A stretch of DNA of 64,000 nt from Paramacrobiotus metropolitanus (Eukaryota; Tardigrada; Eutardigrada; Parachela; Macrobiotidae). A model generated the notes under the pieces. The model was not told where the DNA came from and did no database searches. It was given only the letters and a program-made list of their open reading frames with translations. The DNA is taken from NCBI RefSeq assembly GCF_019649055.1, contig NW_026570293.1:372001-436000 (forward strand), in the 5' to 3' direction. Each line of letters begins with the position of its first letter. The stretch's first letter is position 1. The position numbers and the translations under genes were made by a program. Below are positions 16,158 through 58,007 of the stretch, piece after piece.

Positions 16158-19100
16158 TTAACAGTGCAACAGACTGTCTTGTACGACGGTGCTGGACAGT
16201 GCCAGCTGCGGCTCCGCGTCCAGCGACCGCCCAGGGTGGCGGACGGTCAGATGGTAGGCGAACATTCCGCGTCGCACAAAACCCTGCTGACACTCCTCGC
16301 ACTGGTACGGGAATTCGGTGTAGTGCTTCATTTTCTGCGGGGGAACGTAGTCTTTCCTCACCGACTGTTTCTTTTCACCGGCACCCGGATTTTTCCGCAG
16401 ATCCACCTTCCCTTCCGCATGCACGCGCTCTTTGTGATTCAGTAAATGGCGACGAGAGAAGAAACTCTTCCCGCATTCACAGACCATATCCCTAGTCGCC
16501 TTGTGCACGAATTCCCGGTGTTTCTGCATGCCATGTTTTTGCTTGAAGACTTTCCCGCAGATGTCGCACGGGAACTGGCCGATATCGCGGTGCATGCGGC
16601 GCAGATGGTGGCGGAAGTTGCGGAAGCTGTATTTGCAGGTGGCCGGGAATTTTTTATCGCACAGCGTGCACAGCAGCATCCCGTCCACCGAGTGCGACTG
16701 CTTGAAATGATTGTACAGGGGCACGGTGGTGGGAAATGTCTCCTCGCATAGCAGGCATTTGACGGTATTGCCATGGTGCGTCTGCAATCAACCGGCACCA
16801 GTGATCAAATATGCTTGAGTGTAGTTTTGAACGCTTTGATGCACACATGTAAATGAAAATGAAATTACTGTTATTGCTGCTAGTACGTTTATTCATGCAT
16901 TAATCTGGTTATTATCCGATCTTCTTGAAACTTTGCGGTAAAAGCCAGTAAGCCACATAGCCAAAAAGCATAGTCTCAGCAATCAGCTGTATACAGTGCA
17001 TTTCTTCTCAAATGAATCAATCTGTTTTGCAATTTTATAGCTAACAGCCTACTTTTGGTGCACTATGACGCCAATAAACTTTTTGTATATATACACCGTG
17101 TTTATACAGTTGCCGGGTCGTTATCATGGTAATTCGTCTCAGTTATTAGAAAATTTCCCAAGTCATACCCTCATATGATGCACGTAATAAGTATTGCCGG
17201 TGAACTTCCGGTGGCACGTGGGGCACTCATACGGCTTCTCGGCATCATCCAACAGATGAATCTGCTGAATGTGCCGTTCCAGTCGTTGGAACGTCACGAA
17301 GGAGCGTTGACATCGCGGACAGACGTGCAGATCTTTCCGTGCGTGACAGTTATCCACGTGCTCTACCAGTGTCCGGACGTTCCCCGTGGAGAAGGTACAA
17401 AGTGGACACTGCTGCACCTGTAGTTGGATAAATAATAATTCCACATATAATCTGCCCATAGCCTGGTGGTAGTACGTCTGGCTTTAGGATTGTATACCGC
17501 AGCTTCGGCAGGTGACTTTTATCTCAAAATCAGACCAAAAGGCGTATAAAATTTTTCCAAATTCACCCAAAAAACTTCCTAATACCCTGGTAAAATGTCT
17601 CGATTTGGATATTATACATTTATTATTTGGATAATTATAGTAATAATAATATAACAATACTAACCTCTTCGGTCTCTTTATCGAAAGTACCAAAGTCTTC
17701 GCGATGCTGCAGAGCATGTACCGACTGCACCGCACACGTGGCGAACTGCATTTTACAGGTTTTGCACGCACGATCGGTACCACGGTAACGTTTGGTCTTC
17801 TCGTTAGCCTTTCTCCGGATTTTTTCCGATTGTTCGTCCGACAGGGAATGATGCTCCGCATCTACGTGATCCACCAGTGCCGACCAATCTTCCGCTTGGT
17901 GGTCGCACTCGGGGCACACAATCCGCTGTCCAGTCGTTGCCGGGAGAATTCCGTCAGTGCGATGACGTAAATGGTGGATGTCGCGAGTGATTTTCAGCCG
18001 GAAACTAATCGGGCATCCTGCGGTGCACGGAAAACGTCCGTCGGAAAGATTGGTTGGCGGCCAGACACGGATCTGTAACGCCTTTCTCGACAGGAAATCA
18101 AGGGCTTCATCCAGATTTTCCGCCGGCACTGATAACAACGGTCCATCCGATGATTCTCTGGCGCTGTCGGGAAGAGGTGGGCCGAGAGCGTCCGCGTCTG
18201 CAGCGCTCTGTGTTGGATATTCTGCATAAATATGTATAAGTAGTGCTGTTAATTTTATCATAAACAGATTAATTAATGGCTAATTTAGAAATTTTTTTAG
18301 TCTATTTTAATGAATTTTTTTGATCCTTTATTCAAAATAAATCAATCGATTACTCAATGTGTTAAACTTTAACTAGAGTAGATTCAAAATTCTCACGAGT
18401 ATAACCAGGCACTGACTGCTGCTGTGAAACTGAGTTAGCGAGTACTGTATTATCAAAAGATCGAATATCGTCGTTAACGTTATCCAACCGTAAGCGTTAT
18501 TTCTTCGGTTGCACTGAGTGTTTAATTTGTGTTATTACATATTTCTTCAGCCATATTTTAATTACTTTTTTTAAGTTTTTTTAATTTTTTTAGGCACTCA
18601 CTCCGCGGAAAGGAATTTAGCTTAGAGGAAATTAATGATATTTAATGCAACTGTATGTTACTACGTACGGTAATCCAGTAAAGTGTACCTTCACTCATCT
18701 TCCGTTTGAGCTGCCAGGCTTCCTTCAGCGTCATCAACGGATGCCCAGTGCGCTGCAGGTACTTGTTGACACTCTCCTTGTCCAACTCCAAACAGCGAAC
18801 TTTCCCCCGGAGGCGCTTGGAACTGTAATCACCACCGTACTGACCACTCCGCTCCATAATAAATTCCCCGATGGTCTTCGCTACTTCGCACGGTGTTACT
18901 AGCGAGGTTTTCTTAGTGCGGTTGTTCCACAGTTGATAGTTTTCAGCGTCCGACAGCCATTCCACCAGCGCCGTCTCCTCTTTATCGCTCCATAATCGGT
19001 AGGAGCGGGTGCCAAATTGATCCGGCGTTAAGTCGGACTTTTTCGCTGCTTTTTTGGAGATTTTCCGGCGGGTGGGCTCAGTGTTGGTAGGACGGATTTC

Positions 19101-21749
19101 GTCCGTGTCAGGAGTGTCGAGATGGTCAACCAGATCAGTTCCTTCGCAAAGAGCGACCAAATTGTTATTATTGTTATTATTATTATTAAAATTATCCTGG
19201 CTGGTATCAGCGGTCCAGGAATCCGCAGAAATCGGCAAATCATCGATATTGTCGTCAAAAGCGTATTTCTTGACCAGCGCGGCCATTTTCGCCTTAACAG
19301 TCAGGACAAGATGCTCCCGGGCCGACTCACCGCACTCCCGGATGAGGTGCGCTTTGACCCGCCTTGCAATTTCCATCTTGGAAACTACACTCCCACCCTT
19401 CACCGAACTGTCGCCCGCGCGCTGCCACTGCCGATAATTCCGGGGATTTTCCAGCCATTTTATGGTCAGCGCCTCCTCCTGCGATGTCCACGCGCGGTAC
19501 CGCCGTTTCTTCCGCAGATCACTGCCACTATCCAGCAGCGCGGTAATCTTCGTTATAATATGCTGCGGTGAAAATTCCCGAGCGCCCCGCCCGACCAGGT
19601 ACGCCGCGACGATCCGCGCCACCTCGCTTTTTGTCTGCAGGACGCCTGATACGGGGTTGCTCTTCCCGGCGCACTGCCACATGGTCAGATTGTTCGGGCT
19701 GTCCAGCCAATCTCTCAGTAGACGTTCGTCCTTCTCCGACCAAGTGCGCTGCTGATTGGCGTTGAATTCTGACGGGAGTCCATCCGGCATAAACCCAACC
19801 TCTAAATCCGGCGCATCGTCCTCCATCAACGGATCCGCGGTGATTTTTGTTCGGGTCCGTGACCGACCATCTGCAGCAGTAGCCGACGCCGAATTCTCTG
19901 TACTATCATCAGCGACGCTCTCGTCCAGGTAAACGGCGTTGTATGCATCGCGAAACCGCCGAACATTCGCCGGCGTTTTGTCCGTGTCCGGCTGGAGGGC
20001 TTTGCCTTCCAGTGCGGCGACTTTTCGCTTGATGAGTACTGGTTCGAGGGAAGTACACCCCTGGCCCACCATATATGCCGCAATTAAACTGGCCACGTTT
20101 ATTTTGGTACCACAGTGCTCCGCCGAGCTTCGTCCGGCGCGTTTCCACTGGCGACAGTTGTCGGGATCCAAAAACCAGTCGACCAGACAGCGCTCTTCCG
20201 TTTTCGACCATAGATAGTAGGGGCGGATGGCCATGTCGACGGTTATCGCTCGACGACGGCGTGGCGCGGGGGACCGAGGCGGTGACGGATCATCATCCAC
20301 GGTAGGCAAATTATTTTGCACAACATTGCTATCTTCGTCGGGAGTGACGCTGGATGCACCGATTGGCATCGCAGTACAAAGCGCGTCCATCGCATCACGG
20401 GTATTCGCCATAACGCCCACACTATTGTCGCCATCAGCGTCCTTATTCCCTAATAAAAAATACAAACCAATTTAGGCTAGAAAAGCATTTATGAAAGAGG
20501 TTAGGCTTACCTTGCGTTGCAAGTCCAGGCGCGAGATTCTCCTTGTTGAGGAGTTGGCAGTATTTTGTGGAGTACCAGAAGCAGAGTTCCGTCTCGGCGG
20601 GGATGTCTTTCGTGGTGGCCAGGTAGACGTGGTCGTCCTGTTGGAAGGCGACGAGGTTCTGCTGCTCCGCGTCGACGGCCTCGCGGACGAACTTGATCCA
20701 GTTGCACAGATCGTCGCTCCTCAGGTCGAACACCCGCACACCTGCATTTTCTCCGCGGGATCCCTTCTTGTCGCGCAGTCCGAAGCGGTGGTCCACGGCG
20801 AAGGCGGCCACGGGGTGGGGCGTGAGGGGGGCCAGCAGCGGGCCGAAGACGCTCGGGTGGGGGATGGCGCGCTTGGCGAAGACACCCGGGTCTGCAATAA
20901 ATAATACAGCTATACAGACTGACAAATTAATCAGTCGACTGCTTCTCACCGAGCATCCCTTCCTTTTGCGCGATGTACAGCTCCGACGGCAGACTGCCGT
21001 ACGCCCGGGCCACCACTGGAGTGTCTCTGATCAGCTGTGAATGCAGCACACACGGCTCATCGCTCCCATCCAGACAGCGTCGACACTGATTGGGTTCTAC
21101 AACGTATCGTTCCCTTCTGCTTAGTCCTTCCACGTAAACCAGTGAAATTTGACGTTATACAGTATACCTGCACAATTTTCGTCGCCTACAACGGATGCTT
21201 CGCGCACACGTTGGCTTCGTCTGGCCAGTTTCGTGCGTTCTCCGCTGACGGATGATTCATGATGACGTTTTTTAGCATCAACTTGGAAGGGAACGGTCTC
21301 GGATACTCTGTTGCGACGACGGCCATGGTGATGCCGTGAGACAGGCGCAATGGGCACTAGGATGAACGTGGGTAGACCAACGGTCGGAATCGGCGGAGAA
21401 GGTTGATTCAGTTCCCCTGGTGCTACAAAAGTGATCAGCGATCATACATGATACTGATAACACGAGTGATACAACCCAGATATGTTAATGTATCACTTTG
21501 GCTGACTGATCTGGATTGTATGAATTTGTATCTGATCGGGATTATGTTAAATAGTTACTAAAACAGTCAAGGATATAGCACAGCTTATGTGCATCGATAA
21601 TATTGGTCTCGAAAATATAATAATAGTAATACAAGTTGAAGTAGTACATAAATGCATATAAAATTGCAAGTTGCAACAGCAAGAGTGCAAGACTCACAGT
21701 GTGCATCAGCAACCGAATTCGCTATTTGCTTTGGCAGTAATCGCTGCAT
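16158..21749 (-). CDS. PRDM-like gene A: PR/SET, 4 SANT-like repeats, C2H2
   Basis: Exons (5' to 3'): 21749-21698, 21422-21168, 21096-20950, 20891-20511, 20449-18689, 18221-17665, 17417-17169, 16781-16158. All phases fit and give ~1341 residues. Order: MQRLLPK start; variable exon with LPTFILVPIAPV; zinc knuckle C-x2-C-x7-C-x2-H; PR/SET domain (~residues 120-275: VFAKRAIPHPSVFGP, LCNWIKFV, QNLVAFQ, ELCFWY), closest by eye to the PRDM10/15 type. Then four W-rich Myb/SANT-like repeats at ~354-428, 512-585, 595-673 and 760-835, and about ten C2H2 fingers. The finger at the last junction takes its final His from exon 8. The likely role is a nuclear DNA-binding regulator; methyltransferase activity is not shown. 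Paralogous to genes B, C and E, and closest to E in the first repeat. The frame is intact throughout. Confidence 0.87.
19161..19187 (-). repeat. Poly-asparagine tract in gene A
   Basis: A (AAT)n-type triplet run encodes nine consecutive Asn between SANT-like repeats 3 and 4 of gene A. It lies in a low-complexity linker and is absent from the paralogues, so it is a likely length polymorphism. Confidence 0.8.
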
Positions 21750-22030
21750 CGTTCAGAATCCATCAAAAGAAGATCTCAATGCATGCCCGATTAAGTTTTC
21801 GTCATGGAATCTTTGAGATCACAGAATGCAGTGGAAAGGAAAACAGCAATTTATAACAAAACAAACAAACGTTAACCACTAAAACAGTGTAATAAGAAAA
21901 CTGGCTGCTGCAGGTCTCGTTCAGTAGTGCAGCAGCAGCGTCACCCGTAGGCGGTAGGTAACTTCCGGTAAGCCGGTAAAACACTTCCGGTATTTAATTC
22001 CGGTACTTATTCCGGTACATTCTTCCTGAT
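21750..22030 (-). promoter_or_regulatory. Putative 5' region of gene A
   Basis: This sequence upstream of the MQRLLPK exon matches the corresponding region of gene B (31116-31345). Shared phrases are GAAGATCTCA, AAGGAAAACA-CAATTT and the GGCGGTA-G-AACTTCCGG block. Four TTCCGGTA motifs (ACCGGAA on the gene strand, an ETS-like core) lie within 21960-22022. The promoter role is inferred from position and conservation between duplicates; no clear TATA box is seen. Confidence 0.35.
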
Positions 22031-22894
22031 GCAATTGTAAGTTTTTTACCATTGTTCACAGAATTCCATCACGTAGACAAACACTGGATCGTGACGCACG
22101 CATGTATCGGTATCACACGGTACAGACATACGAGTATAACGTTTACTTTGCGATAAACAACGCAGTCGGAAACGGAAAGAATGCTCCACTCGCATAACTG
22201 CAGTATACAGTACTTATATACTTAGAATTCTTTAATAAGTTCCATTTGCTGTTATGCGGCAAGATACCCTGTTGCAATTATGGGAAAAAGCACGCATAAA
22301 AGCACTATTCTTTTTAAAGGTTGTAAACAATGCTTGTGCAACGGAAGCAGCAATAAGGTTAAAAACCGCTTGCTCTCCTCTACTTTACACATGAATCTTG
22401 TAAGGAAATTGCCAATACCAATGGAACGCCTGGTATCCACAACCCTAAGCACATGATAATTTACGGGATACGTAGCTTACGAATTACGATTGATTTCTCC
22501 TTTCCATGGCTCTGTGGCACTCCATCTGTGTTTTGAATCAGACTTTCAGTGGTTGCAGAATAGTATCACGGAAAATCTTTAACATTTGTCTACTTTAGTT
22601 TTCAAGAAAATAACTGTCACTTTCCACTTTTATAGAGATACTACAGAGTATGAGAACTTATTACAGTAGCATCGACAGCGCTTGCATCCTTTTTGTTTAA
22701 CTGACTATTGCCTAGCTGTTAAACAAATCACTTACTGCGTAAATTAATAATTTGGATTTGATCGTTTCACTTCGAATTTGACCATTTCATTACTTTATCA
22801 TTAACGTGATGGAGAATAATACGTGAATGCATTGAAAGGAAAGGCTATGCTCTGTTTTTATTATTCAGCAAGAAAAACAAAACCGGAACAGGAA
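22031..22894. other. Intergenic between gene A and serpin
   Basis: No coding domain is seen. The two genes are divergently transcribed, so the serpin promoter must lie here. The serpin frame extends in-frame upstream of the chosen ATG to a GTG at 22823, with another ATG at about 22847. Confidence 0.45.
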
Positions 22895-25552: not shown

Positions 25553-28500
25553 TCACTGATTTGGATGCACGGCGGTGCTGGAGAGCATCAGCTGCGGCTC
25601 CGCATCCAGCGACCGCCCCGGGTGGCGGACGGTCAGATGATAGGCGAACATCCCTCGCCGCACGAATCCCTGCTGACACTCCTCGCACTGGTACGGGAAC
25701 TCAGTGAAATGCTTCATTTTTTGCGGCGGAACGTAGTCTCTATTCTGCGCCACACTTTTGCCACCTGTTGCGTTCTTCCGCCCGTCCACCTTGTCCTTCT
25801 GATGCACCACTTTCTGGTGCTGACGGAGATGCGGCCGCGTGGGGAAGGATTTGCCGCAGTCACATACGTGATGCCGGCCGGCGCTGTGCACCCCTTCCAT
25901 GTGTTTAGAGCGGGCGCTGGAACTTTTGCACATTTTCCCGCAAATATGGCAGGGGCATTCGTTGCTCTCCACGTGTTTCCGGGCGTGGATGCGGAAGTTC
26001 CGGAAGCTCTCTTTGCATTTGATCGGGAATTTTTTGTCGCAGATCGTGCAGACCAACTGGCCATCGACCGAGTGCAACTGCTGCATGTGCTCGTAGAGTT
26101 TCGGCGTCTTAGGGAATTTCGCCTCGCATAATGGACAACTGATGTGGTCGGGCCCGAGATGAGACTGCAAAATTTTGCCTTTTTTAACTTTTTCAATGGT
26201 GTATAAGTGTATATTTTTCGTTAACGTGCTTTCAGTTATTTCCATTTTTCTAGAATTATTTTTTAGTAGTATTTAGTTTTTAAATAGTTTAAAAGCTCTT
26301 CAACTATTTTTTAATTATTTTCAATTATTATAAAACATTATTATCAATTTTTAAATATTTCAAAGATATTTTCAAAGACACGCTTTTAACACTATTGATC
26401 GCTTGAACGATACCGAGTAATATCATGATCTTTGGTCTCATAGTGCTGTACTTAGTGCATTGCACCTGTTGTGTTCATTTTGTAATAATTATTTTCTTAT
26501 GTTTTCGTTTATTAAAGTTAAAAGATTGTGGCGTATTCTTCCGGTCGAAGTATAACTCTCAACAGATCGCAGTACGGTGGCTGCTCTACTGGCTTACAAC
26601 ACTCCGACCGATACGCAAATTGTACATTTAATCACACTTTTCTTATAAATTTTATAGCTCTTCGATAAGTTATTTTAAATTTTATACTTGCCTTGAGATG
26701 CCGCACATAAGGAGGGTTAGACGAGAACTTTTTATGGCACGTGGGGCACTCCAAAGGCTTCTCCGCATCAGTCAGGAGATGTTTATGCTGGATATGGCGC
26801 TCCAGGCGCCGGTAGGAGATGAAGGAGCGTTTACAGCGCGGACACTGGTGTAGATCCTTCCGCGAATGCCGCTCGTCCACGTGCGCGATCAACACCGACC
26901 GGCGGACCGTGGAGAAGGTGCAGGCGGGGCACTGCTGCTCCTCGCCGGTATCCACTGGCAACGTTTTCTCATGCCGCCAGTAGTGGACTTCGCGGACCGT
27001 ACGCGAGATGAATTCCATTTGGCATTCTTCGCATTTTGGATACGGGCATATAATTTTTGGATATGAAGCACTCTTAATCCGCTTCATGCGCCTCGATTTT
27101 ATTGGCCTCAGCGCCGGACCCTAAAAAACAAATATGGGCCTTTTCGTACCTTTAAAAACGAGGAAAATCAACAAAATATTAGCGGTTACTGATATATCGT
27201 TATTCAACAGTTATTTTTTTTATTTTTTTTAATCGGCATTTAATTCTAAAATCCATCTAAAACCAAATTCTGAAAAAACTAAATTTCCTTCGACACTCTC
27301 GGACACCGCTTCGAATCTGAAAAAGCTTGAAACGTAATTAAAATAAAAAAAGGGAGAAATTAAATGAAATCAATGACATATGTCCTTGAGTTTCTTCTAA
27401 CCGTTTTCTTACTTTACTGAATTTAACTGGATCGCCATTTAATTTGATAACTTTTTCAATGGGAGAATGGAGGGAGCGGCAGCATTAAATGAAATTCTGT
27501 TTTTTTGATCTGTTGTTCTTAAACTGTGATGTTACCGCATTTTGTGAAATAAAAAGTCCGTTCACTAGAATCATTAGGAATAGTAACTAAAAAAATGAAT
27601 TTTTCATTTCAAATTGCTCAAATCCGGTTAGAATTCGCCATGGTCTGATTCAATGCTGAAATTATGAAACGTTTGAAATTGTAAATTAAATCCTACCGGC
27701 AATCGATGCTCTTCATCGACATGATCGCACAGCGCCACCCAGGTAACCGCAAAAAAATCGCACTCGGGACAAACGGGAGAAGATTCTCGGGCTTCCCAGA
27801 GCCAGCTGCGATGGCGCAGATGGTGGATGTCGCGCGTGAGGATCTTGCGAAAGCTTGCCGTGCAACCCTGCCGACAGTGGAATTTCTTGCTGCGGTTGCA
27901 GCGGGATGGCGGCCAGATGCGGTGGGAGAGCGCTTTCCCGGACAGAAACGACACGAGCTCTTCATCGCAATGCCGATTATCGCCTCCGTCATCTATTACC
28001 GCTTCGGTTTGCGGCAACTCTGACGAGACACCATCATTTATCGACGCTGCTTCTTCAGTGAACGGCAGCGAATCGGAACAGGTCGGCAATGATTCTGCAA
28101 TGCGCACAACGTACTCGTATAGGTATCAGCAACGGACCGGAAATCACCAAGCTTTTGCAGCAGAAAAATTCAGCAAAATTACAAAAAATTGGTTATCAAG
28201 AAATCTATGGCCAGCGGAATCGAATAACACACAGAAGTGCACATGTAAACACACGACGCACACTGATACTAAGAAACGCCCTTTGAATCAGTAAACAATG
28301 AAAAAGATTTAAAAAACCACGAATAAAATGCCAACTAAAAAAGGGCAAAACCAATTGTCAATACTTCGGCGTTTTTCGCGTTGCGGATACATAATAATAA
28401 TTAATTACAATATTCTATTTCAGTAGAATGATAAAACTTACTTTAGTAATTTTATAATAAAAGAACCAAATAAATTTGGAAATAATAAAATTAAAGAGAG

Positions 28501-31115
28501 CAGAACTCCAGTTTAAATGCCAATAAATAAAACAAAAAATGTAGAATAAACTAAGCAGCAAATGAAAACTAACAGCAAAGATTAGGCTGCTAATTTAAAG
28601 TGTATTGACAGTTTAACACCCACCATGACCGAGCCGCTTCAATCTCCACGCTCCCTCCAGCGTCACCGCCTCCCTGCCGGTGCGCTGCATAAACACGTTG
28701 GCCCTGTTCCAGTCACTGATCATAACGGCCACTTTCTCCTTGATCGATTTCACGGCAAACAGCCCCGCTGTAATTCCACACCGCTCGACAATCCACTCCC
28801 GCGCTATTCTGGCTAATGTGGCTTTATTCTGGTTATCCGACGGAATTTCAGCAGACGGGTCCTTAACGCCCGCGTTCCTCCATTTTTCCAAATTATCATC
28901 GGTCTCCAACCAATCTACTAAAGCGGCTTCATCGGCTTTCGAATAGAGGTGCTTTTTGGCGCGCTTCTTTTTGGCCGATTTCGCAGGTTCCTCCGACGGC
29001 CCTATTTCCGGCACTTCCGCGGAAACATTCACCGCGTTACACGCTGCCGCCATTTCAACCCGCCTCACCGGCTTTTTCGGATTCCGCTGTGGCGACGTCA
29101 TTTCTGGCGGATCACTGGCCGGAAGTCCTGGTAACGATGTTTCCGGGATGACCTCAAACTCGTCAATATTTTTCTCGAGATTCCCCGCGCGGTAGGATTT
29201 CTTGGAACCCGCGACCGGGTGCGACGTTTTGCCCTGCATCTTGGCGATGCGCCGCTGAATGACGTCGGCTTCGAAAGCAAAACATCCTTTCTGGATTAAA
29301 TACTGGGAAATATTACCAGCCACGTCGCTGCTAGTACGGCGACCGGAATCTGGCGTCGCAATCGCGTCACTTTCTACGGCGCGCTGCCATTGCAGAGCAT
29401 TCTCGCCGTTGCGGAACCATTCCGCCAGCCAGTGCTCTTCCATTCGCGACCAACCGTATCCTCTGCGCGGCTTAACACTCACTCGTCGCGTTTTCTTCCC
29501 GGGATTTATTTGCCGATTTATATCCGCATTATGGTTTACGTTGAGGGATACTTTCTCCACATTCCCGCTGACCAGTTCCAGTGCCGTAACAATGGAAGGA
29601 AATAACTGATTGGCATCGGCGGACGCTGCCGCCGTTGGTACACGAGCGGTATTTTCATCGTTTACCGACATACCTTACAAACGCAAACGATCTTTCGAAA
29701 TTTAAACTGAAACAATTCATTGAAGTGATCATACCTTCCGCGTTTGCTGCCAGGGAATAACCCAGATCATCGCCAACAGCTGGGGCAGGATTCTCCAGTC
29801 GACTGGATAAATCAACTTCGTTCTCATTGTTTTCCGACAAGCCTAAAACAACATACGTGCACTTTTGCTGCAAACTAGGTGCTAAAAAGTATACCTTCGG
29901 TAAACGATTCCGGGGAAAGATTTTCTTTGTTGAGGAGTTGGCAGTATTTTGTGGAGTACCAGAAGCAGAGTTCCGTCTCGGCGGGGATGTCCTTAGTGGT
30001 GGCCAGGTAGACGTGGTCGTCCTGTTGGAAGGCGACGAGGTTCTGTTGTTCCGCGTCGACGGCCTCGCGGACGAACTTGATCCAGTTGCACAGATCGTCG
30101 CTCTTCAGGTCGAACACCCGCACACCTGCGTTTTCTCCGCGGGATCCCTTCTTCTCGCGCAGTCCGAAGCGGTGGTCGACGGCGAAGGCGGCCACGGGGT
30201 GCGGCGTGAGGGGGGCCAGTAGCGGGCCGAAGACGCTCGGGTGGGGGATGGCGCGCTTGGCGAAGACACCCGGGTCTGCAATAAACATTTAAAATTAATT
30301 AAGCACACTGTCAGTTGATAAGCCAACGGCTTCTCACCGAGCATTCCTTCCTTCTGCGCGATGTATAATTGAGAAGGCAGACTTCCGTATGCTCGGGCCA
30401 CCGTCGGAGTGTCGCTGATCAGCCGCGAATGCAGCACACACGGTTCATCGTTCCCATTCACGCAGCGTCGACACTGATTGGGATCTGCAGTGCATCATTC
30501 CGTTCTGCTTAACACTCTAACATAAGCATGAAAAATTGACCGTTATACACCGTACCGGAACAATTTTCATCGGTGCTCACGGATGTTTCGCGCAGAGATC
30601 GGCCGAGTTTGGCCAGCTTCGTGCGAGATTCGTTGACGTCTGATAAAGATCCATGGTGTCGTCGTTTCTTGGCAGCAGCTGGGAGTGGAATGTCCTCGGA
30701 CACCTGTCGGTTGCGAGGACGACTGCCACGTTGAGGCAGTGATACAGGCGCAACGGGCACTAGGATGTACGTTGGCAGACCAACGGTCGGGATCGGCGGA
30801 GGAGGCTGATGCAGTTCAACCGCTGCAACCAGCGTCGAAACTTGATCAATGATCAGTAATAGGACAAGTCCGTGTATGATGGACCTATCTACTCTGTACT
30901 TTCGCTGACTGTCTAGCTTCACCGGATCGCCACGGTGCATTATATTAATTAATTACCTCATTACTGAAACATTGCAAGATATACGTAGAAGTGTAACGCT
31001 GATTACTAATCCCGTAATCCGACGATGCAACAGCTAGAAGCCAATGAACAGCGAACTTACAGTTATTTGGATCATCAACAGAATTCGTGTTGCGCTTAGG
31101 CAGTAATCGCTGCAT
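25553..31115 (-). CDS. PRDM-like gene B: PR/SET, 2 SANT-like repeats, C2H2
   Basis: Exons: 31115-31061, 30822-30556, 30484-30338, 30275-29895, 29842-29735, 29673-28624, 28094-27697, 27120-26692, 26164-25553. Phases fit throughout, giving ~1148 residues. The start MQRLLPKRNTNSV is followed by the FILVP-type exon (LPTYILVPVAPV), zinc knuckle, PR/SET (~residues 125-284), and a 36-residue acidic exon absent from gene A (SENNENEVDLSSRLENPAP). Then come two SANT-like repeats (YGWSRMEEHWLAEWF; LYSKADEAALVDWLE) and about eleven C2H2 fingers. The intron after 26692 starts with GC (AAG|GCAAGT), while gene C has GT at the same place. The PR and last exons are almost identical to those of gene C. The likely role is a chromatin-associated DNA-binding regulator, as for gene A. 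Confidence 0.87.
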
Positions 31116-42388: not shown

Positions 42389-42890
42389 ACGAGCAGTGCC
42401 AAAAAAATTTGTTAATTTTCAGCAGATTACTAGTAACATTTAACCGGGCCTGTGGTTTTGCCAGCCGCCCAGGATGGCATATACGGTTGTTACAGTTGGC
42501 TGTTGGTGCCAGTCTGCCACTCATTTTGCACATGTCTGTGGTTAAATTTCAAAAAATAATGTTTTTCATTTTTGCAGAAATAGTTCAAATATTTTGCCTT
42601 TTGGAGTTAACTTTTTCTTAGCTTTACCGTCACGTGATACAAAGATTTTTATATTATAGCTGTTTTGATGCTATTTGTATTTGTTGTGGTTGTGATCCTT
42701 GTGCGAAACGACGGCACACTGCGAGGCTTGCAGTTCTCGTGCAGTACACTGAGTACAGTATGACTGTATAGGAATTAGGAGCTCAAGACGAGTTTTGGAC
42801 TAGTTGAGCGGATTTTGTAATAAAATCTTACAAGCCAGTTGGCAATCATTGTGCTGGCATTGCATTTCTGCCAGTTTCCGCTTTTCAGCC

Positions 42891-45800
42891 ATGGAGAACA
42901 GCGACGTACCGGAGAGCTCCTTCTATGTGCTGCTGACACCTGCAGCGAATTATAGACAGGAACCCGAGGCATCGTGGCATGTTGCATCGCGTTCTCCATC
43001 TCCCGGAATTCACGCTCCCGTTGCCAATCATCGATTTTCCAGCACGCCTGCTGCCAAATGTCCGCCGCCAGCATCATCGACGCTCGGTTTGAGAATGAAC
43101 TTCAAGAGAGGTATGCTGTTTACTTTGAGTATAGTCTGTACTCTGTACGAGTATAATGTTTCTCACGAAACGTTTTTGTTTTCACAACTTCTATTGCTTA
43201 TTTGTTTCTGGCTTCTGATATGTTTCCACGTTTTCATTTTGTTTGTTTGGGGCGTTGTTATAGGCCGCGGAGTACTGAATAAGGAAAATCATCAGACGAA
43301 CGGTGGATGCGTCTTTTGCATTCGTGATGTGCTGGAAGAACCGTGTCCGTTGCATTCGCATTCCGTACCCGATAGCGAGGTGCTTCCCTTGGCGCTGGCC
43401 ACGCTGCCTTCTTCGCTGTCCTTCATTCGCGCAGCGGCTGATGGTAAGCACAACGGCTAAAGGAATCAAGAGTTCGAAATCACTGTCAGTTGTTTTTTAT
43501 TTGCAATTTTTTTCGTACGACGCATTTATACAGTTATGCTCGTAGTATTTTACTGACAATGAGTAGCTAATTATTAAAACTCTTCCTTTTTCGAGAAGTA
43601 TATATGAGTTTATATTCTTGATTTATAATGTATGTATTTTGTATTCATAGGAATTTTTGGCAAATTTATTTATAAATAATGCATATTTTTAATATTCTAT
43701 TCTGTGAACTTGCGTCTTATGTGTCCGTTGGAATGGCATTTGCAGCTGCACCTGGTGGTGTACGAGCAGAGTGTAGCTTTTCTTCCCGCACGGTCTTCGG
43801 GCCGATGCGCGGCGTCATGTGTCCGCACGCCAAGCTACAGCCGCCCCTCTTCGGCATTCCGGACCGTCCGACGCTGCACGGCATCCTGCGCTTCCACACG
43901 GAATCCCCTCACGGCTGCAACTGGATGCAGTTCGTCCGACTGGCCACCCACACCGCCGAACACAATCTCACCGCCTACAACGTCAACGGGGAGGTGTATT
44001 TCGCCACAAAGAGGGATATTGCCGCGGGGGAAGAACTGACAGTCTGGTACTCAACCAACTACGCCAAAGCAATGAGAATCTCGGGGCGTTTACGGGAGAT
44101 CAGTAATGATCCTGGTGAGTACACAATGTTTTCCAGATTTTCCTAAGGAATTCCGTAAAATTCTTCAACACTTGCGTATGTTCCGTTGCAGCTTTGTCTG
44201 TTTTTGAAAAGATTTTTTCTGATTTTTTCAGTCCCACTGCGCGGGAGAATGGGCGTCCTGGGACGACCTGTGGCGTTCTGTGACGATCTCGTATGGGAGT
44301 CTGGTTTGCCGGACTCGTTGCCGCCGGACGAAAGTATTATGCAGACCGACGCAGTTGATCTCGTGCCACCGGCCAAAGAGGATTCAATCCATCAGGAAGG
44401 GGAAGGAAATGACAGCGGCAGTGGCAGTATCTGTATAGACTATGAAACAGCCGCCAGTGATGCGGAAAATGAGACCGCGAAGGCGATTTCTCCCACGGGA
44501 AATGTGCACGGTAATTTATTGCTTTTTATTTTCTTATGAAACTTTTTTCTTCGATATTTTATAATTTATTTTAATATTATATATGCATATTGTGTAAATT
44601 TAAATAGCATAACGTTACCACGTTATTCTTTTATGAATTTCATTTTTTTATTATTTATTCCGCTGCCTGGGTTTCAGAATCGAAGGCGCAGTATCCCAAA
44701 CGCGGCAGCCTCGTTCATCAGAAAACCATCGTGCGCCTAAAAGCCGTGATGGCCGTCAATCCCTACCAATTCCCAGTCGGGACCCCTCGCATCCAGGCTT
44801 TCGACGCCGTGGTGCGGCAACTCGACGGGCCCGATCTCTCGGCAACAGAGTTAACCAGCCGAAGTAAAGCCTTGCGCCGTTTAGTCAAAGATTGCTTGGA
44901 TATCTTCCCGGAGACCCTCCAACGCTTCGACAAATCCTCCTGCGATGAACGTACCATGGAGTACGTGAGTCTCATGAAAAAACTGAGAAAGATGGTGAAG
45001 AACAGTTGCAAAGAGAAGGAAGTTGTTCCGCGGCATGTCAACGCCGACACAGTGAAGAAACTGCAGGCGGTGCGGGAAGTTAATCCCTATCAGTACCCCC
45101 TGCCCAGTGCGGAACGACAGGCCGCCTGGGAGTCAGTGATGCGGAATTTACTCGGGGATCTGGAGACCGAGGAACTGGTGATTCAGATGAAGAAGATGAA
45201 GCGCTTGGTGCGGGAGTGTTTGATCAGCCGGGATGATACGTTCCGGCGCTGCGCCCGCCAGCGGGATGAAGTTACGCAGCAGTATAAAAGCGTGGTGGAA
45301 GAATTAATAATTTTGGCGGGGATTAACAAAGATGATGAAGGAAAGGAATCCGGAGCGGAGGGTTGCAGCAGTGAATTAGAAATTAGAGCAGAGGACGCAG
45401 CAAAGCTGCCACCAGCGCTTCCGGTCGATGGTGATGGCTCTCGGGATAGCTACACAATGGAGACGGGAAGCGATTTGCCGATGGCGTTGGATACCGCTGA
45501 TGAAGGCTGTGGAACGGATAGTGACGCGAGTTCTGTAGAACAGCCGAAAAGTAAGCGCATAATATAATACGTTGCAGGACTAAAAGTGGATGGATGGCTC
45601 TTTAGGAGAGAGATATCAGCACTATAGGAATAATTACCGTAATAATCTGGGCCACTCAACCATAGAATATGAGCTGATAATTTCAGAGTGGCATAGCTAA
45701 GTCTAGGAAATCTGGTAATCTACGCGAACGAGAACCTACACTGTTTTTCGACGATGAATTTAATTCATAACTCCGATCACTGCCTAACTTCTTGGTGTTG

Positions 45801-47951
45801 CTGCTTTACAGGAAAGCGCAAACGCCGCACCCGCTTCCGCCACGATAATCCCGAAGCGGTGAAGCGCCTGGAAGCCATCGTCCAAGTGAACCCGTATCAG
45901 TATCCTCCGGGAAAGATCGGGACGCCGCCTTCAACGCCGCTGTCCACCTCCTCGGCAGGGAAACCCCGGACACCCCTCAGGCTCTCAAAACCTTCGTCCA
46001 CCGCTGTTTAGAGACGGCGGCGGAGAAGGCGCAACAGTTCAACGACGCCGCCGGACCGGTGTTCCAGCGCTATATAGAGCTCCTACAAGTCCTCATTGCC
46101 CAGAAGCAGGACAGAATCAAAGACGTGCCCGTTGTTCGCTCCCGGCGAGAGGACCCGGTCGCGCAGTTGAAAGCCGTGGTAGACGTCAACCCTTTCCAGT
46201 ATAATACTGTTGAAGCGCGGAGCAAAGCCTTCGCTTCCGCGGTGAAGTTGTATTCGAAAAAGAAACTATCTCCGACGAAGTTAGAGAAGGAAGGACGGGC
46301 GTTGGAACGCCGCGTTAAGAGTCGTCTCGATCAGCTTCCGAAGCTTCTGGAGAACTATGATCCAGGGAACGCCGGGGACTCGTTGAAGGAATACATGGAG
46401 GTGCTGCAGAAAATCCCCGAATTGAAGGATAACGGGGAGAAGATTGTTCGGCCGTCGTCTCGGGTGTCCAGAGCGCCCGCGCTGCGAATGAAGCCGGCGA
46501 CGGAGGGGGTGCATGCATGCACAGCGTGTATGTTTTCCTTCGAGTCGGCGGAGTTGTTGGCGTTGCACACGCGGGGCCATGACGCCGCCGCCGTGGAGGA
46601 GGGCGGCGCCACCGCGTGTCCGGGGTGTCAGGAGGAGTGCGGATCGATGACAGCGCTGATCGCCCATGTGGCTGAGCACCGCAAGGCCTACCGTCCGCGG
46701 CAGCAGTGTCCCGATTGTGGGCTGTATGTCAGCGTGAAATTCTTCGATCAACATATCAAAACGTTGCATCCCGAGAAGTCAGATGATCCGGCAGCGACAT
46801 TTACCTGCGGAGAGTGTAAAAAAGAGTTCGGCGCACAAAAACAGCTGTGGGCTCATGAACAGGTTGGTAAAATTCCCATTATTTAACGCGAACTGATACA
46901 CCAAATGTCTCATTATGGACCGATGCTCTTCAAACATTGCCCAAAAACCCACATAACTATGAAAATCGTTGCTGCCCCGAATCAGGAGTTTTAGATTTTA
47001 AAATTACTTTTTTTATTTTAAAATTAATTTTGATAAAATGTTTGCGTTTTGAATCGTTTGGAATTTTTTTCACCCTTGATTTCTGAACCGGATACTGCAC
47101 TTACAAACGGTTTTCACGCCAACGTATACAAATCATTTGGCTTTAAAATCTAGAGTGCGGAAACGCGAAAGTTTTCGTGCATGTACACGTGTTTCGTATC
47201 TCCCAGTCGTATAACCACCTACGTATTCGCCGATTAAATTAAATTAAAAGCGACTTGCCAACCGGATTAATTCCCTTATAAATAACGAGCAACTAACTTC
47301 AAGGGGGTTCTGCTTCATTATAAGAATGAGCGACAAAATATTATTTTAACTAGAATGCTAAAGTAATTCCATCGTAAATGGCAGCCTCCTGATACGCGAT
47401 ATTACCGGTGTTTTGCGTTGCAGATCCACCGCTCCAAGAGCTGCCTGTTCTGCGCCCAGCTGTTCCCCTCCTGGCGACACCTCAGTCAGCACGTAGCGCA
47501 GCACAAACAGTCCGAAGGTTTCCCGTGCCTCCACTGCGCCAAAACCTGCGACAGCTACGCCGTCCTGAGCCGGCACTGCCGCGCCCAGCACGACGCTAAA
47601 GCGGTATGCATCTGTGAGATCTGCGGCGCTATTAAACGCAACCACGGTGCCCTGCGGCACCACATGCTCAACCACGCCAACACCTTCCGCCACCCCTGCG
47701 ACCTGTGCGGCAAGGGCTTCAAGACCACCACCACGCTGCGCACGCACCAGCGCTGGAAGCACAGCACGGAGCTGAAGGAGAAGCATAAGCAGCACAAGCA
47801 GAAACAGAGCGGGGTGCCCCGGGACTACCTGAATCCGCGGCAGCGCATGCGCTTCGAGGAGTTCAAGTTCCGCTGCGAGGAGTGCCGGTTCGGGTTCCTG
47901 ACGGAAGGGCGCTGGTTGCGGCATAAGGAGAAGTTCCATTACGAAGAGTGA
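42891..47951 (+). CDS. PRDM-like gene D: PR/SET, NPYQ repeats, C2H2
   Basis: Exons: 42891-43110, 43264-43443, 43746-44114, 44232-44510, 44678-45550, 45812-46862, 47424-47951. It has the same plan as genes A-C and E but is diverged: SSFYVLLTP exon; knuckle C-x2-C-x8-C-x2-H; PR/SET (FGPMRG, NWMQFVRLA, NLTAY, ELTVWYSTNYA); acidic exon. Four ~85-residue helical repeats follow, each opening L-x-A-V-x-x-V-N-P-Y/F-Q (44740, 45070, 45880 and 46185 approx.), then C2H2 fingers. The last intron again separates the two His of a finger (LWAHEQ then IHRSK). In exon 6 the frame breaks at the A-run near 45911-45915: one extra A would keep repeat 3 open, so this may be an assembly error. ATG 42891 is the first in frame; an upstream exon is possible. 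Gene F is its paralogue. Confidence 0.82.
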
Positions 47952-51841: not shown

Positions 51842-54800
51842 ATGCAGCGATTGTTGCCTAAACCATCACCCAACGGCGTCCCCTCGGCTAACGGTGAGTT
51901 CATGCTGGAACTAAGCAATTTTGATTATAAACGGAACGGTTGGCACTCTGATGAAGAGGACATGATGCTATTTTGTCCGGGTACCCCTGACGCAGCGAGA
52001 CAATCAAAACACACCTAAACGCAGGCCCGTCTTTAGCTTTTTGGAAGGGGGGTGCACAAAACCTCGCGCCAGTTGGGAAATGGCCGAAAATTTCAGGAAA
52101 AACGTAGAAAAGTGGCTTTTTTGAGCCACTTTTCTACGCTTTTCTATTGTAATTTTCGTTGCGCCAGGGCCAGTGCGACCGCGCCAGTCGCATTTTCTTG
52201 CGCCAGCTCCCGGCACACCTTTTTCCCGTTTTTTTCCCTCCGGGAGGGGGGGGGCAGTGCGCCCCCCCCCCCTTAAAGACGGGCCTGCCTAAACGTCACG
52301 CGCACAAGTCACAACTACAAGCAAGCTAACAGCAAGCATTATAATGTTTTGGTAGACGCAGTGCCCCTGCCGCAGACTGCCTCTCTGACACTGCCCACCT
52401 TCATTCTGGTGCCCATTACACCTGGTCCACCACCCCTGCAAGACAACCGACATAACAGGCATGTTACCCGGGCTGCCAAGAAGCGAGGCCTCCAGTCACT
52501 ACGAGTAGGAGGTGCAACGAAAAATAAATTTCCACGAATTGACGAACCTGTCCGCGAAGCATCCGTTGCTGCCGATGAAAATTGCTCAGGTATGTTGTAC
52601 AACGTCAGATTTCCCTTTGGTCTACAGTATATGGAAACGATAAGCAGAATTGAACTACGTGCAGATTCGAACCAGTGTCGACGCTGTGTGGATGTTGGCG
52701 ATGAGCCGTGCGTGCTGCATTCGCGGCTGATCAGCGATACCGCGACGGTGGCCCGCGCATACGGCAGTCTGCCTTCTCAATTATACATCGCGCAGAAGGA
52801 AGGAATGTCCGGTGAGAAGCAGTCAAGACTGATCAACCGACAATTTGTGTAATTAAATTATTTCTCGTAGACCCGGGTGTTTTCGCCAAGCGCGCCATCC
52901 CCCACCAGAGCGTCTTCGGCCCGCTATTGGCCCCCTTCTCGCCCCACCCCGTGGCCTCCGTCTTGGTCGACCACCGCTTCGGACTGCGCCAGAAGAACGG
53001 ACCCCACGGAGAAAATGCAGATGTCCGGGTGTTCGACCTGAAGAGCGACGATCTGTGCAACTGGATCAAGTTCGTCCGCGAGGCCGTCGACGCGCAGCAG
53101 CAGAACCTCGTCGCCTTCCAACAGGACGACCGCGTCTACCTGGCCACCACTAAAGACATCCCCGCCGAGACGGAACTCTGCTTCTGGTACTCCACAAAAT
53201 ACTGCCAATTCCTCAACAAGGAGAATCTTCAGCCAGGATTTGCAGCGCAAGGTAAGCTCCTAATCTCTTAATTGGGTACTTTTCTAGGCTTACTTCGTAT
53301 GTATTTGATTTATTAGAGAATAATGACGCTTATGGCGACGTTACGGCGGATTCGCATATTCCGATGGACGCACTTTGCAGTGTAACACCGACCGCTGCCA
53401 CCGGCGACGATTCCGATGTTATAAAAAATGCGTTGCCGGCCGTGGATCCGTCACCGGCTCGATCCCCCGGGCCACGCCGTCGCCGAGTGATCACCGTCGA
53501 CACGGCCGTCCGCCCCTGTTATTTGTGGTTCAGAACGGAAGAGCGCTGTTTGGTCGACTGGTTTGTCAATCCCGACAACTGTCGGCTGTGGAAACGCGCC
53601 GGCCGAAAGGCGATGGACGGTAGTCCCAGCAAACTACACGTGGCGGGTGTAATCTCATCTTACTTGGTGGAGAATGGCTGCGAATCCATCGGACCGGAGA
53701 TCATCAAGCGGAAAGTCGCCGCATTAGAAACCAAAGCTCTGCAGCCGGAAACGGACAAAATGCCAGCGTATGTGCGGCGGTTTCGCGAGGCGTACAATGC
53801 GGTTAACCTGTCCGATGGCGCAGCTGATGATAATCATATTACGAATTTATTGCCGGATACAGCGCCGACAGGTTTAATGGCATTGGCAGCGCATCGTCCG
53901 CCGCGAAAGGGTAGACCCACCGGTTGGTCCAGTATGGAGGAGCGTTGGTTAGTAGGGGGTTTAAATCAAACGCCAGTTTTCCTATCTTTTTGTATAAGTA
54001 TCACAATACAAGTACAAACTTTAGGTACCAAAACATTTTCCTATTAATTTGTTCTATTTTAAAATATTTTAATTTAAGGTGGTTGCACCGGGAAGAATGC
54101 AAAATGAAATTTATAAAATATGCAAATTCACTTATATCCCTTATATATAATTAAGTTACTCTATATGAAATTATACAAATTATAATTCAAACATCGTAAT
54201 TGCTTTTATTATTGAATTATTTTTGTTGTTGCATTATCATTGAAATAATTTACATTCCTTCTATGTTATATTATAAAGTCCCTTCGAGCGAAGGTAATAA
54301 GTAGAAAAATCGAACATTTAATGGCTAGCAATTGTCTATAAAATTAATTTAATTAAAACATATAAAAATAAATAACGTAATTACATATATCATTAAATTT
54401 AAATTTTGTTTTCAATTACAAAATTTTAATTTTTAAAAAACAAATCGCATAAATCTCGGCCAGAATTGTTACCGATAATCTCGCGCCTAGGTTAGTGGAA
54501 TGGTTTGCGCAGCCAGATAACTGCCAACAGTGGAAGACGTCGTTTCTCCACCACACCGAAAACGATATCGCCAAGAGCATAGCCGCGTATTTATTAGAAC
54601 GCGGCGGACAAAATTTCTCCGAGCGTCCGCCGTTGAATATTCTCCGCAAAATCCGTCTTTTGAAGCTCAACTATCGGAGCCGGTGGCGGCCGATGCGCCG
54701 GAGGATGTTGTTTCCCTGTTCCGCACGGCGTACAACGCTGCCGTCGTTAACGAAGACGAAGCCGGTTCGTTGGACGAAGACGCAGCGGGTTTGGGGAAGA

Positions 54801-57800
54801 GACATTCGTGGTCGCTAGAGGAGGAAGCCATCTTAGTGGAATGGCTGGAGAAGGAGGAGGATGCCGCCCGCTGGCGGCCGCACGCGCCGGAAGAGACGAG
54901 AGTGCGGGATGGGGAAAAGTCGCGGGTGGCCGGTATCGTGCGGCAGCGGCTGGTGGAGCGGTGTGGAGCACACAATGCGCACCGGCGACTCTTTAATGTC
55001 AGGAAGAAAGCGGCGCATCTGCTGACGGACTGGCAGACGGCTAATGCGTATATGCAGAGCGTTGGGAAGCCGGCGATGACGCTGACGGATGCGTGGAAAC
55101 TGAAGCGCCTGGTGGCGGAGGGTAAGTCGCTCAGAAATATACCAATAATCCATAAAAACATTTAATCAATAAAATTTATTAACAGTTAATTTCATTTATT
55201 CGCCAGTCATTAAGATGTTCAAAATAAAATCAACGATATATTATTTTTTTACTTATAAACAATGTCTGCCCGGTCTTGGTGGACAATTTAGTAATTACAA
55301 ACATGACGAGAAAAAATAATATAATTAAATAATATAATAAAATTTACTAATTATTAACATGACGAGAAAAAATAATATAATTAAATAATATAATAAAATT
55401 TAGTAATTAGAAACATGACGAGAAAAAATACTATAATTAAATAATATAATAAAATTTAGTAATTACAAACATGACGAGAAAAAATAATATAATTAAATAA
55501 TATAATACAATTTAGTAATTACAAACATGACGAGAAAAAATAATAATATAGTGATTTAGAAATAAGTATAGCTGAAAATAATAAGGGAAAAAATTGTAAT
55601 AATATTATAGTGACTGACCGATTGTAATAAACGTACTGGTAAGAATAACGAACAAAATGCAAATAAATTAACGTTAAAAATAATATTACCTAATGATGGA
55701 AAATAGTAGTATTCATAATAAAATGGCAGACATAAAAATATTATTAATTAATGATGGAAAATAGTAGTATTGATAAAAAAATGGCAGACATAATATAAAT
55801 AAATTCAGTAACAATCTACAGGAGACATACGACCTGTCGTGGACCATTATCTCACTCCTGTGCCAGACGACATTCAAGCGGGTCAATCGTCGGAAACGAA
55901 TCAACCGACTGGCCAGGATGATCTCCAACAAATTCTCACGTTCTTCTCCCGAAAAGCGCTGCACCACCGCATCTGGCCGCCGGTCGACTCGAAAATCGAA
56001 GTCACCGTGTGTGAATGTCGGGACGGGTGCGGAGCGCAGTTCACACTGAAATTGGCGCGCGATCTGCACGGGCTACGGCATCGGACCGGACCCTGGACGA
56101 CCAGCGCGTTTAATCCGTTGTGTCCCGTGTGTGATTTTGCACCGACCAACTGGACGGCGCTGTTCGATCATCTGGATGAGCAGCATCAGTTCTTTGACTT
56201 TGCGGCCGACTCCCAGAATCTATCAAAACTGAAACTGCGTCGCGAGTTAAAAAAGAAGCAGGAGAAGAAGGTCAAGAAGGTACGGACATAGCTCCATTTT
56301 CTAATTCTCTCTTTAATTAAAATGTCGTTTCCAGAGTAGTTTGTTAACAGAGTAACAAAATCAAAAAAAATTGTGCTGTGGAATATGAAATATGTGACAT
56401 CATGTGAAAATTCTTATTAGTTTTTAGAATTTAATATTTATTTAAATTAATTGCATTATAAGGACGGTTAAAAAATCTATTTTATTTCAACGGTAGACCA
56501 AGAAGAGATGTAAAAATTTCCCCGTCTGCGAGCACTGCGGTATGGAGTTCATTCATAAGGAGGTACGCAGCATCCATTACCTGAGACATGGTACAACGCT
56601 GCCGGACGATGCCGGGGAAATACGCCAGTGCCCTGCGTGCACCTTCTACGCGGACAGTGTGCCGGCATTAATTGCGCACGTGGACGAGCGGCACACGCGG
56701 AAGGATCTGCACACGTGCGCGCGCTGCCAACAGTCGTTCATTTCCTACCGGCGTTTGGAGCGCCACATCCAGCGCAGTCATCTGTGGTCGGACGCCGAGA
56801 AGCCGTACGAGTGTCCGACATGCCACAAGAAATTCTCCGTCAACAGCGCTTTCACCCGCCATCTCAACGTACGAATGCCTAACTAAGATTTTTAAAAATA
56901 ACGGATAAATAAATAATAAATAAATAAATTTATAGTAAATTCATAAATAAATCAATAAATTCATAAAATAATAAATATATTTATAAGTAAACAGCGGATA
57001 ATGAATGACGGATAGGAAAAAACGAGTAACGGATATAGTGCGGCATTATGGAAGTGTAAATTCTTGTATTTCAGTTTAATTTCAATTTGAGTTTTAAAGC
57101 GGGTAGTTTTATGTTTTTTTTAAGTTTAAACTCGTCTCTAAACCTGTGTGGATAATTAGCTTCAAAGGACTGTTAATTTTTATAAAATACAGTAACTTAA
57201 TTTTTTTTATTTTGTTTATGTTCATTTATTTATTATTAATTTAAACTAATTACTGTAATAACATTATTAAATACTCATGCAGTATAATTAGTATTATTAT
57301 AAATAAAAATATTTGTTCATTTATTATTGTTATAAATTCGATGATTAGTTTTAATGTTATAATTTATTTTAATTTCTCTCAATCCGATGCAGACCCATCT
57401 GGACGGTGATCCCATCAGTTGTCCCTTATGCGCCAACGCGAAATTCCGTCAGACCGCGCAACTGTACGACCACATGCGGCAAGCCCACTTCGTCAACGGT
57501 CAGCTGGTGTGTTCGCACTGTGATAAACGTTTCCCCGCCGTCTGCAAAGAACACTTCCGCAATTTCCGCGCACATGTCCGCAGACACGTGGCCACTGAGG
57601 AGTACCCGTGCAATATTTGCGGCAAAATCTTCAAACGCTCCAGCGCCCGCTCCAGGCACGTGGAGGGGGCGCACAGCTTGAGCCGGCCTCACGTGTGTCA
57701 CTGCGGAAAATCCTACGACACGCGAGGGCATCTCGCTCAGCACCTACGCGTGGTGCACCGGAAGGACAAGGTGGATGGGCAAAAGAGCGTCACAGGTGGC

Positions 57801-58007
57801 AAGAGTGTCGCGCAGAGTAAAGACTATGTCCCTCCGCAGAAAACGAAGCACTACACCGAGTTCCCGTTTCAGTGCGAGGAGTGTCAGCAGGGATTCGTCC
57901 GCCGCGGCATGTTCGCCTACCATCTGACCGTCCGCCACCCGGGGCGGTCGCTGGACGCCGAGCCGCAGCTGATGCTCTCCAGCACCGCCGTGCATCAAAA
58001 TCCGTAA
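51842..58007 (+). CDS. PRDM-like gene E: PR/SET, 3 SANT-like repeats, C2H2
   Basis: Exons: 51842-51893, 52356-52589, 52665-52811, 52871-53251, 53317-53947, 54491-55121, 55822-56279, 56497-56868, 57393-58007. Start MQRLLPKPSPNG, then LPTFILVPITPG, zinc knuckle, 381-bp PR/SET exon (LCNWIKFV, QNLVAFQ, ELCFWY), three SANT-like repeats (YLWFRTEERCLVDWF; GWSSMEERWLVEWF across a splice junction; HSWSLEEEAILVEWLE), and about ten C2H2 fingers. Closest to gene A. The intron 53948-54490 is unique to this copy and bounded by a 7-bp duplication. Near the T-run 54658-54661 the frame shifts by one base between repeat 2 and its linker; one extra T would keep it open, so damage or assembly error are both possible. 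Intron 1 carries a MITE, and intron 6 a 56-bp minisatellite. Confidence 0.8.
52022..52287. mobile_element. hAT-like MITE in gene E intron 1
   Basis: A 266-bp element has 14-bp perfect terminal inverted repeats (CAGGCCCGTCTTTA at the left, its reverse complement at the right). It is flanked by the 8-bp direct repeat CCTAAACG (52014-52021 and 52288-52295). The 8-bp duplication and CAGG terminus fit the hAT superfamily. The interior has no coding capacity. It holds a strong hairpin (GTAGAAAAGTGGCT and its reverse complement, about 52107-52140) and long G and C runs. Confidence 0.88.
53948..54490 (+). other. Insertion-derived intron in gene E
   Basis: A 543-bp AT-rich segment interrupts SANT-like repeat 2 between the codons for Trp and Val. 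The direct repeat GGTTAGT lies at both ends (53947-53953, 54490-54496). If 53948-54490 is spliced (donor GTTAGT, acceptor CGCCTAG), the repeat reads through exactly as ERWLVEWF, as in the paralogues, none of which has an intron there. The duplicated target supplies the donor. No terminal inverted repeats are obvious. Confidence 0.72.
55283..55550. repeat. 56-bp minisatellite, five copies
   Basis: The phrase CATGACGAGAAAAAATA starts at 55302, 55358, 55414, 55470 and 55526, an exact 56-bp period with few changes. The rest of the unit is A/T only. It lies in intron 6 of gene E. There is no spacer-repeat alternation, so it is not a CRISPR. Confidence 0.92.
55690..55795. repeat. Two-copy 58-bp tandem repeat
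   Basis: TAATGATGGAAAATAGTAGT followed by ATT(C/G)AT and ATGGCAGACATAA occurs at 55691 and again 58 bp later. It lies in the same intron as the 56-bp minisatellite. Confidence 0.8.

Follow-up and report, generated by a model that had tools for sequence, protein, structure and literature searches.

The DNA analysed here, a window of 64,000 nucleotides corresponding to positions 372001-436000 of contig C73, is part of the 169.8 Mb genome of the tardigrade Paramacrobiotus metropolitanus, assembled in 533 contigs, and holds a cluster of PR-domain zinc-finger genes, with genes A, B and C on the minus strand and genes D and E on the plus strand. CAHS proteins, which are not known outside tardigrades, match in this genome with identities of up to 77-83% and mark it as that of a eutardigrade; a COX1 search gave no match. 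A PR domain and zinc fingers make up the usual architecture of PRDM proteins (PMC2082429), as was also stated in the first-pass annotation, made from the sequence alone. Between these two parts, in genes A, B, C and E, it had noticed tandem W-rich repeats of about 75 residues (W-repeats in the following), and had taken them for Myb/SANT-like DNA-binding helices. What these repeats are, where they come from, and what they may do within a PRDM protein, are the questions raised by this locus.

Architecture of the gene cluster

Splice junctions of genes A, B, C and E were picked by GT/AG sites and frame. By joining the exons in silico, one open frame was obtained for each of genes A, B and C, of 1237, 1021 and 957 aa between knuckle exon and stop codon, the domains being in the order zinc knuckle, PR, W-repeats (4, 2 and 2, respectively) and C2H2 fingers. 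The features are listed below, by window position; the repeat-bearing part of each gene is called its cassette.

16158..21091, minus strand: gene A, knuckle exon to stop (1237 aa spliced), open through all junctions
20950..21091, minus strand: gene A, pre-PR zinc-knuckle exon (CxxC..CxxH, SLPSELYI), from the sequence; no Pfam match for this exon type
20511..20891, minus strand: gene A, PR/SET exon (PF21549, 5.7e-21)
18689..20449, minus strand: gene A, cassette exon, W-repeats at 20216-20001, 19748-19530, 19496-19269 and 18998-18783
16158..18221, minus strand: gene A, C2H2 exons at 18221-17665, 17417-17169 and 16781-16158
25553..30479, minus strand: gene B, knuckle exon to stop (1021 aa spliced), open spliced frame
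29895..30275, minus strand: gene B, PR exon (PF21549, 1.3e-21)
28718..29458, minus strand: gene B, W-repeats at 29458-29228 and 28951-28718 (W-repeat profile)
32144..39824, minus strand: gene C, knuckle exon to stop (957 aa spliced), open spliced frame
35765..36145, minus strand: gene C, PR exon (PF21549, 5e-21)
34280..35292, minus strand: gene C, W-repeats in two exons, at 35292-35065 and 34516-34280 (W-repeat profile)
42056..47951, plus strand: gene D, THAP exon (domain 42062-42313), knuckle 43264-43443, PR 43746-44114, NPYQF-type repeats 44737-45324 and 45903-46442, C2H2 46500-46862 and 47424-47951
52670..58007, plus strand: gene E, knuckle exon to stop, with a frame break separating the second W-repeat from the third
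52871..53251, plus strand: gene E, PR exon (PF21549, 1.2e-21)
53520..55027, plus strand: gene E, W-repeats at 53520-53732, 53922-53948 joined to 54492-54665 (intron-split), and 54803-55027
62251..64000, minus strand: 3' part of a further D-type PR-C2H2 gene, with its PR exon outside the window, at C73:437765

The PR exons of all five genes match PF21549 with 75-84 bits (cut-off 27), and the finger exons match the Pfam zf-C2H2 model; the PDB structures nearest to the PR domain are those of PRDM10 (3.5e-21) and PRDM4 (7.8e-20). A CxxC..CxxH motif precedes the PR domain in A-E by sequence, the knuckle exons tested giving no Pfam match; its exon may correspond to the zinc knuckle of PRDM4, PRDM10 and PRDM15, which it resembles. 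With these three proteins the tardigrade genes share the PR domain and the downstream C2H2 fingers; unlike them, they have Myb-like or NPYQF repeats, arranged in tandem, after the PR domain and before the fingers, form tens of clustered paralogs and, in some cases, carry an N-terminal THAP domain.

A search of the window with a W-repeat profile built from nine seed repeats found four copies in A, two in B, two in C and three in E, within the two to four per gene originally claimed. Each scored 80-97 bits (i-E 1e-24 to 1e-29), values too high for motifs occurring by chance; one gene E copy is split by an intron, and its second half scores 44 bits. The repeats show no Cys/His pattern, which rules out a degenerate zinc finger.

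The consistent splice phases that had been claimed were recovered: in A, B, C and E the knuckle-PR, PR-repeat and repeat-finger introns are all in phase 1, and the finger-finger introns in phase 0. Genes C and E have one additional intron within the cassette, and C has one finger exon fewer; the splice consensus is weak at some junctions, namely gene B PR-to-repeat and the last junction of gene B. In gene E the frame shifts between repeat 2 (ending near 54665) and repeat 3 (from 54803), and no intron of at least 30 bases bridges the change, so that what is seen is either a pseudogene, an allele in decay or an error of the assembly. The PR-repeats-C2H2 arrangement, initially read as being in frame in four genes, is in frame in A, B and C; gene E has the same exons, but a broken frame.

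The span covered by that reading (16158-58007) also holds gene D, likewise of the PR-C2H2 kind, whose repeat is another one and which starts with a THAP exon. Its order is THAP (PF05485, 1.4e-7), knuckle, PR, four NPYQF-type helical repeats and C2H2, with consistent junctions.

Three other genes or elements lie among those described. The knuckle-PR intron of gene C (39682-36146) contains, on the opposite strand, a non-LTR element (36546-39396, plus strand), with a reverse transcriptase (PF00078, 4.9e-17) and a C2H2-like N-terminal ORF. A single-exon serpin (22820-23932, plus strand; PF00079, 6.2e-46) is located between genes A and B, and a gene with a 2OG-Fe(II) oxygenase domain (PF13640, 2.5e-7) at 48718-49632 on the minus strand.

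Fold of the repeats and their transposon counterparts

The search of the repeat against Pfam, proposed in the first-pass annotation as a check, returned no Myb, SANT or MADF model for the W-repeat at E up to 1, with the same result for the transposon copies described below, and a PDB sequence search with the W-repeat exon gave no match. The predicted model of the W-repeat is helical (pLDDT 82). Foldseek searches with this model and with that of the D-type repeat (pLDDT 93) produced no significant match, the E-values for the W-repeat being above 1. In a second structural comparison, the five best rows for the W-repeat were TEAD4 on DNA (Z 6.2 and 6.1), Sap1 on DNA (5.1) and the Tbf1 Myb domain (4.8 and 4.5), with the next at 3.5; every one of the five is a DNA-binding domain, at modest Z values. 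For the D-type repeat, the DNA-binding domain of Sap1 came first, with Z 9.0 across 88 residues, and the row after it had 5.1. For helical domains such values would be weak on their own, and the argument rests on the homology with transposon domains.

A third type of cassette is found in a PR gene at C17:1287643, whose exon matches the Pfam model Myb_DNA-bind_4 (PF13837) with 34.3 bits, above the cut-off of 27; in the genome scan the type scores 23.5 bits for the same model. The Myb/SANT-like assignment thus draws support from the five best structural rows and from this sister cassette, and none from Pfam models of the W-repeat itself or from Foldseek; the evidence supports the W-repeat as a putative helical domain of the DNA-binding type.

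Searching the genome with the repeats separated two sets of matches: arrays beside PR genes, and dispersed single domains, located within ORFs of about 110-210 aa. The latter are transposon-encoded. The layout is exemplified by locus L018, where a coiled-coil ORF comes after the W-domain ORF, and a DDE_Tnp_4 transposase faces them on the opposite strand. A convergent DDE_Tnp_4 transposase within 4 kb was found at 16 of 17 W-type sites away from PR genes (expected by chance at about 0.6% per site), at 5 of 8 sites of the gene D type, where it belongs to a second transposase family (L046-L048), and at 7 of 7 sites of the third type, where it belongs to a third family, for a total of 28 out of 32; the transposase matches range from 3e-35 to 2.6e-19. 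In the same genome scan, none of the 25 cassette-bearing PR genes had a transposase nearby.

Inverted repeats were located for some of the transposon copies only: third-type elements have terminal inverted repeats, with matching 3-base flanks (TAT/TAT and ATT/ATT), while the W-type element L057 has inverted repeats of 30+21 bases and ambiguous 3-base flanks.

The three types were compared with the transposon domains, and with each other, by profile-profile alignment. The W-repeat matched its transposon domain with a probability of 99.5% (E 3e-23), the gene D repeat its own with 98.2% (4e-14), and the third type its own with 99.4% (4e-21). The W type reached only 9.2% and 0.2% with the other two cassettes, which rules out that it is the same domain as either. 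By profile, the cassette types compared are unrelated, and each of the three matches a different transposon family.

PIF/Harbinger elements are defined by a transposase and a second gene, which encodes a Myb-like protein (PMC9710019). In zebrafish this protein binds a 9-bp subterminal motif, and that of Harbinger3_DR also binds the transposase and is required for nuclear co-localisation (PMC9710019). On the profile evidence, the W-repeat is homologous to a domain encoded by resident PIF/Harbinger elements. The PRDM version differs from the second gene of these elements, a Myb-like/MADF protein, in being tandemly repeated and fused to PR and fingers, and in lacking the transposase partner and the coiled-coil part.

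Expansion, THAP arrays and sequence evolution

At least 85 PR-domain matches were found in the genome, of which contig C17 carries 50 and C73 another 10, together with 72 matches to the C-terminal finger region of the family; an earlier survey put the number of PRDM genes at 2 in nematodes and at 3 in arthropods (PMC2082429). A cassette match lies within 5 kb, on the same strand, at 25 PR genes, and about half of the at least 85 PR matches adjoin extra DNA-binding modules of transposon type. For further PR loci on C12, C17, C104 and C448, cassettes were assigned by coordinates only.

Of 150 scored THAP matches, 73 fall within 6 kb upstream of 20 PR genes, on the same strand, with up to seven per gene, at C17:1228705-1407964 and at PR loci elsewhere; many of them share an uninterrupted frame that is 1000-1300 aa long. 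At L051 (C73:232-235 kb) THAP (3.1e-12) and the next linker share a single open frame. The 20 PR loci possibly encode THAP-array PRDM proteins, THAP-PR splicing having been modelled for gene D and L051 only. Twelve lone THAP matches sit just upstream of DDE_Tnp_4, on the same strand.

Two extra third-type Myb-like domains, spliceable to the PR exon, precede it at L071 (1948-2772, corresponding to C17:1285947-1286771); this C17 gene may carry pairs of Myb-like domains on either side of PR.

In the tree of W-domains, genes A, B, C and E have their first repeats in one group (support 97/99), and their last repeats in another, together with those of two outside genes (89/91). Since first and last repeats each group across genes, the arrays seem to predate the gene duplications; the tree does not distinguish a single capture of the W type from several (AU p 0.28). 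Synonymous divergence among the four genes is uneven, dS being 0.10-0.15 for PR exons, 0.31-0.64 for cassettes and 0.52-1.08 for finger exons. The PR values lie far under the others, which suggests that gene conversion, limited to the PR exons (20511-20891, 29895-30275, 35765-36145 and 52871-53251), homogenises them, the DNA-reading parts being left to diverge. At C73:302033-302622 and C73:296881-297302, away from PR matches, there are decayed copies of the W-repeat, interrupted by stops, which are dead paralogs.

Proposed origin and possible role of the repeat cassettes

We consider it probable, at roughly two chances in three, that genes A, B, C and E belong to a PRDM family expanded in tardigrades, which captured domains of the PIF/Harbinger second gene between its PR and C2H2 exons, and that their products act as composite repressors. 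The captured units would be Myb/SANT-like domains, in one to several tandem copies, occupying a phase-1 slot. Besides the homology and the transposon context, the low dN/dS values of cassettes and finger exons (given below) speak for this reading. All genes tested have a PR exon that ends in phase 1, this donor being common to the D, C168, C73 and C17 genes, so that an in-phase transposon exon entering the next intron would get spliced in. A transposon may have inserted into the intron behind the PR exon, its Myb-like exon being spliced in and afterwards multiplied. The protein would then contact DNA via the captured array plus the fingers, as in the two independent DNA readers suggested by the first-pass annotation, and the PR domain would recruit or write repressive chromatin; histone methyltransferase activity is absent from some PRDM proteins. 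Composite sequence-specific repression appears the likeliest role for the PRDM-cassette proteins.

To the best surviving alternative we give somewhat less than an even chance. It holds that the captured arrays are general DNA readers of transcription factors, retuned to host sites and serving development or stress responses, with no transposon link left. Purifying selection (dN/dS 0.25-0.34 in cassettes, 0.17-0.30 in finger exons) agrees with it, as do the far divergence of W-repeats from the transposon domains, with long branches in the tree, the lack of transposase near the 25 cassette-bearing genes, and the fact that transposon-derived transcription factors are common across animals (PMC10027918). 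It leaves unexplained, however, the repeated independent capture from resident transposons, and the number and clustering of the genes resemble KRAB or ZAD expansions, which are often defensive.

If the PRDM proteins are composite repressors, their targets could be the Harbinger elements themselves, in a hypothetical counterpart of KRAB zinc-finger silencing that would use the transposon's own reader; we regard this as plausible, though less likely than not. We think it unlikely, and equally hypothetical, that PRDM proteins with captured transposon readers, comprising three Harbinger types and THAP arrays of up to seven, would form a whole KRAB-ZFP-like silencing system in tardigrades, with the host repressor guided back to the transposon.

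The cassette might instead be a protein-contact module, which binds the transposase without reading DNA, the fusion trapping or misdirecting it in a dominant-negative manner. Transposase binding by the Harbinger3_DR Myb-like protein in zebrafish (PMC9710019) is a precedent; yet it is the Myb-like domain that the genes contain, the spliced PRDM proteins lack the coiled-coil ORF of the transposons, and the structural neighbours of the repeats are DNA-binding domains, all of which makes this explanation improbable. It is more improbable still that the exons for PR, repeats and fingers belong to different genes, or are relics in decay, and are joined in appearance only: the broken frame of gene E and the W-repeat pseudogene at C73:302 kb would fit, whereas order, strand and intron phases are identical in several paralogs, including loci beyond the window, frames are unbroken in A, B and C, dN/dS is well under 1, and, as said, same-strand cassette matches no more than 5 kb away accompany 25 PR genes. 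The reverse direction, with host PRDM genes donating the domain to Harbinger elements, has the least to recommend it: the W-domain tree alone does not root the two groups, which leaves room for it, but a Myb-like second gene is general in PIF/Harbinger elements (PMC9710019), the domain is spread over a number of diverged element families, and each of the three unrelated types would require its own transfer from host to element.

Host capture of transposase DNA-binding domains (PMC12062965, PMC10027918) and domesticated Harbinger genes (PMC9710019) are already known. Caenorhabditis F-box genes with a captured Tc1/mariner HTH (PMC12062965) are likewise a multicopy host family that gained a transposon DNA-binding domain; unlike them, one PRDM family took several unrelated ones. 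The domesticated PIF/Harbinger genes of insects derive from the same source elements, with the same class of Myb-like domain, but are stand-alone transposase or MADF genes (PMC9710019), whereas the tardigrade genes are PR-C2H2 fusions. What is new is that, on this reading, a single gene family has taken up DNA-binding domains of transposons more than once. The first-pass annotation had named a prior description of the architecture as a refutation; among open-licence papers, none was found of PR-repeat-C2H2 or PR-Myb-C2H2 proteins, nor of a tardigrade PRDM expansion, and a 2026 survey of tardigrade zinc fingers covers C4-type proteins, its main text being without PR domains (PMC12941274).

KRAB-ZFP and ZAD-ZNF expansions likewise consist of C2H2 genes that lie in clusters, have multiplied within a lineage and encode a chromatin effector or a partner domain. 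In the tardigrade genes the effector would be PR, and the additional DNA readers would be transposon-derived. As three unrelated cassettes occupy one and the same slot of the protein, and each has a relative among the resident transposons, recurrent domain capture can be tested directly here; the genes also offer a non-vertebrate system for asking if the DNA reader of a transposon is used by its host to act against it. The captured modules may be a home-made defence against mobile elements, or merely new gene switches.

Two further sets of matches were observed in the genome scan. About seven matches to the C-terminal finger of the family, with no PR match there, lie at C70:708-741 kb, and correspond either to PR-less relatives or to missed PR domains. 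On the PR-rich contig C17, six Myb_DNA-bind_4 matches, at 1150-1196 kb and 887 kb, none with a transposase nearby, perhaps represent a further cassette type.
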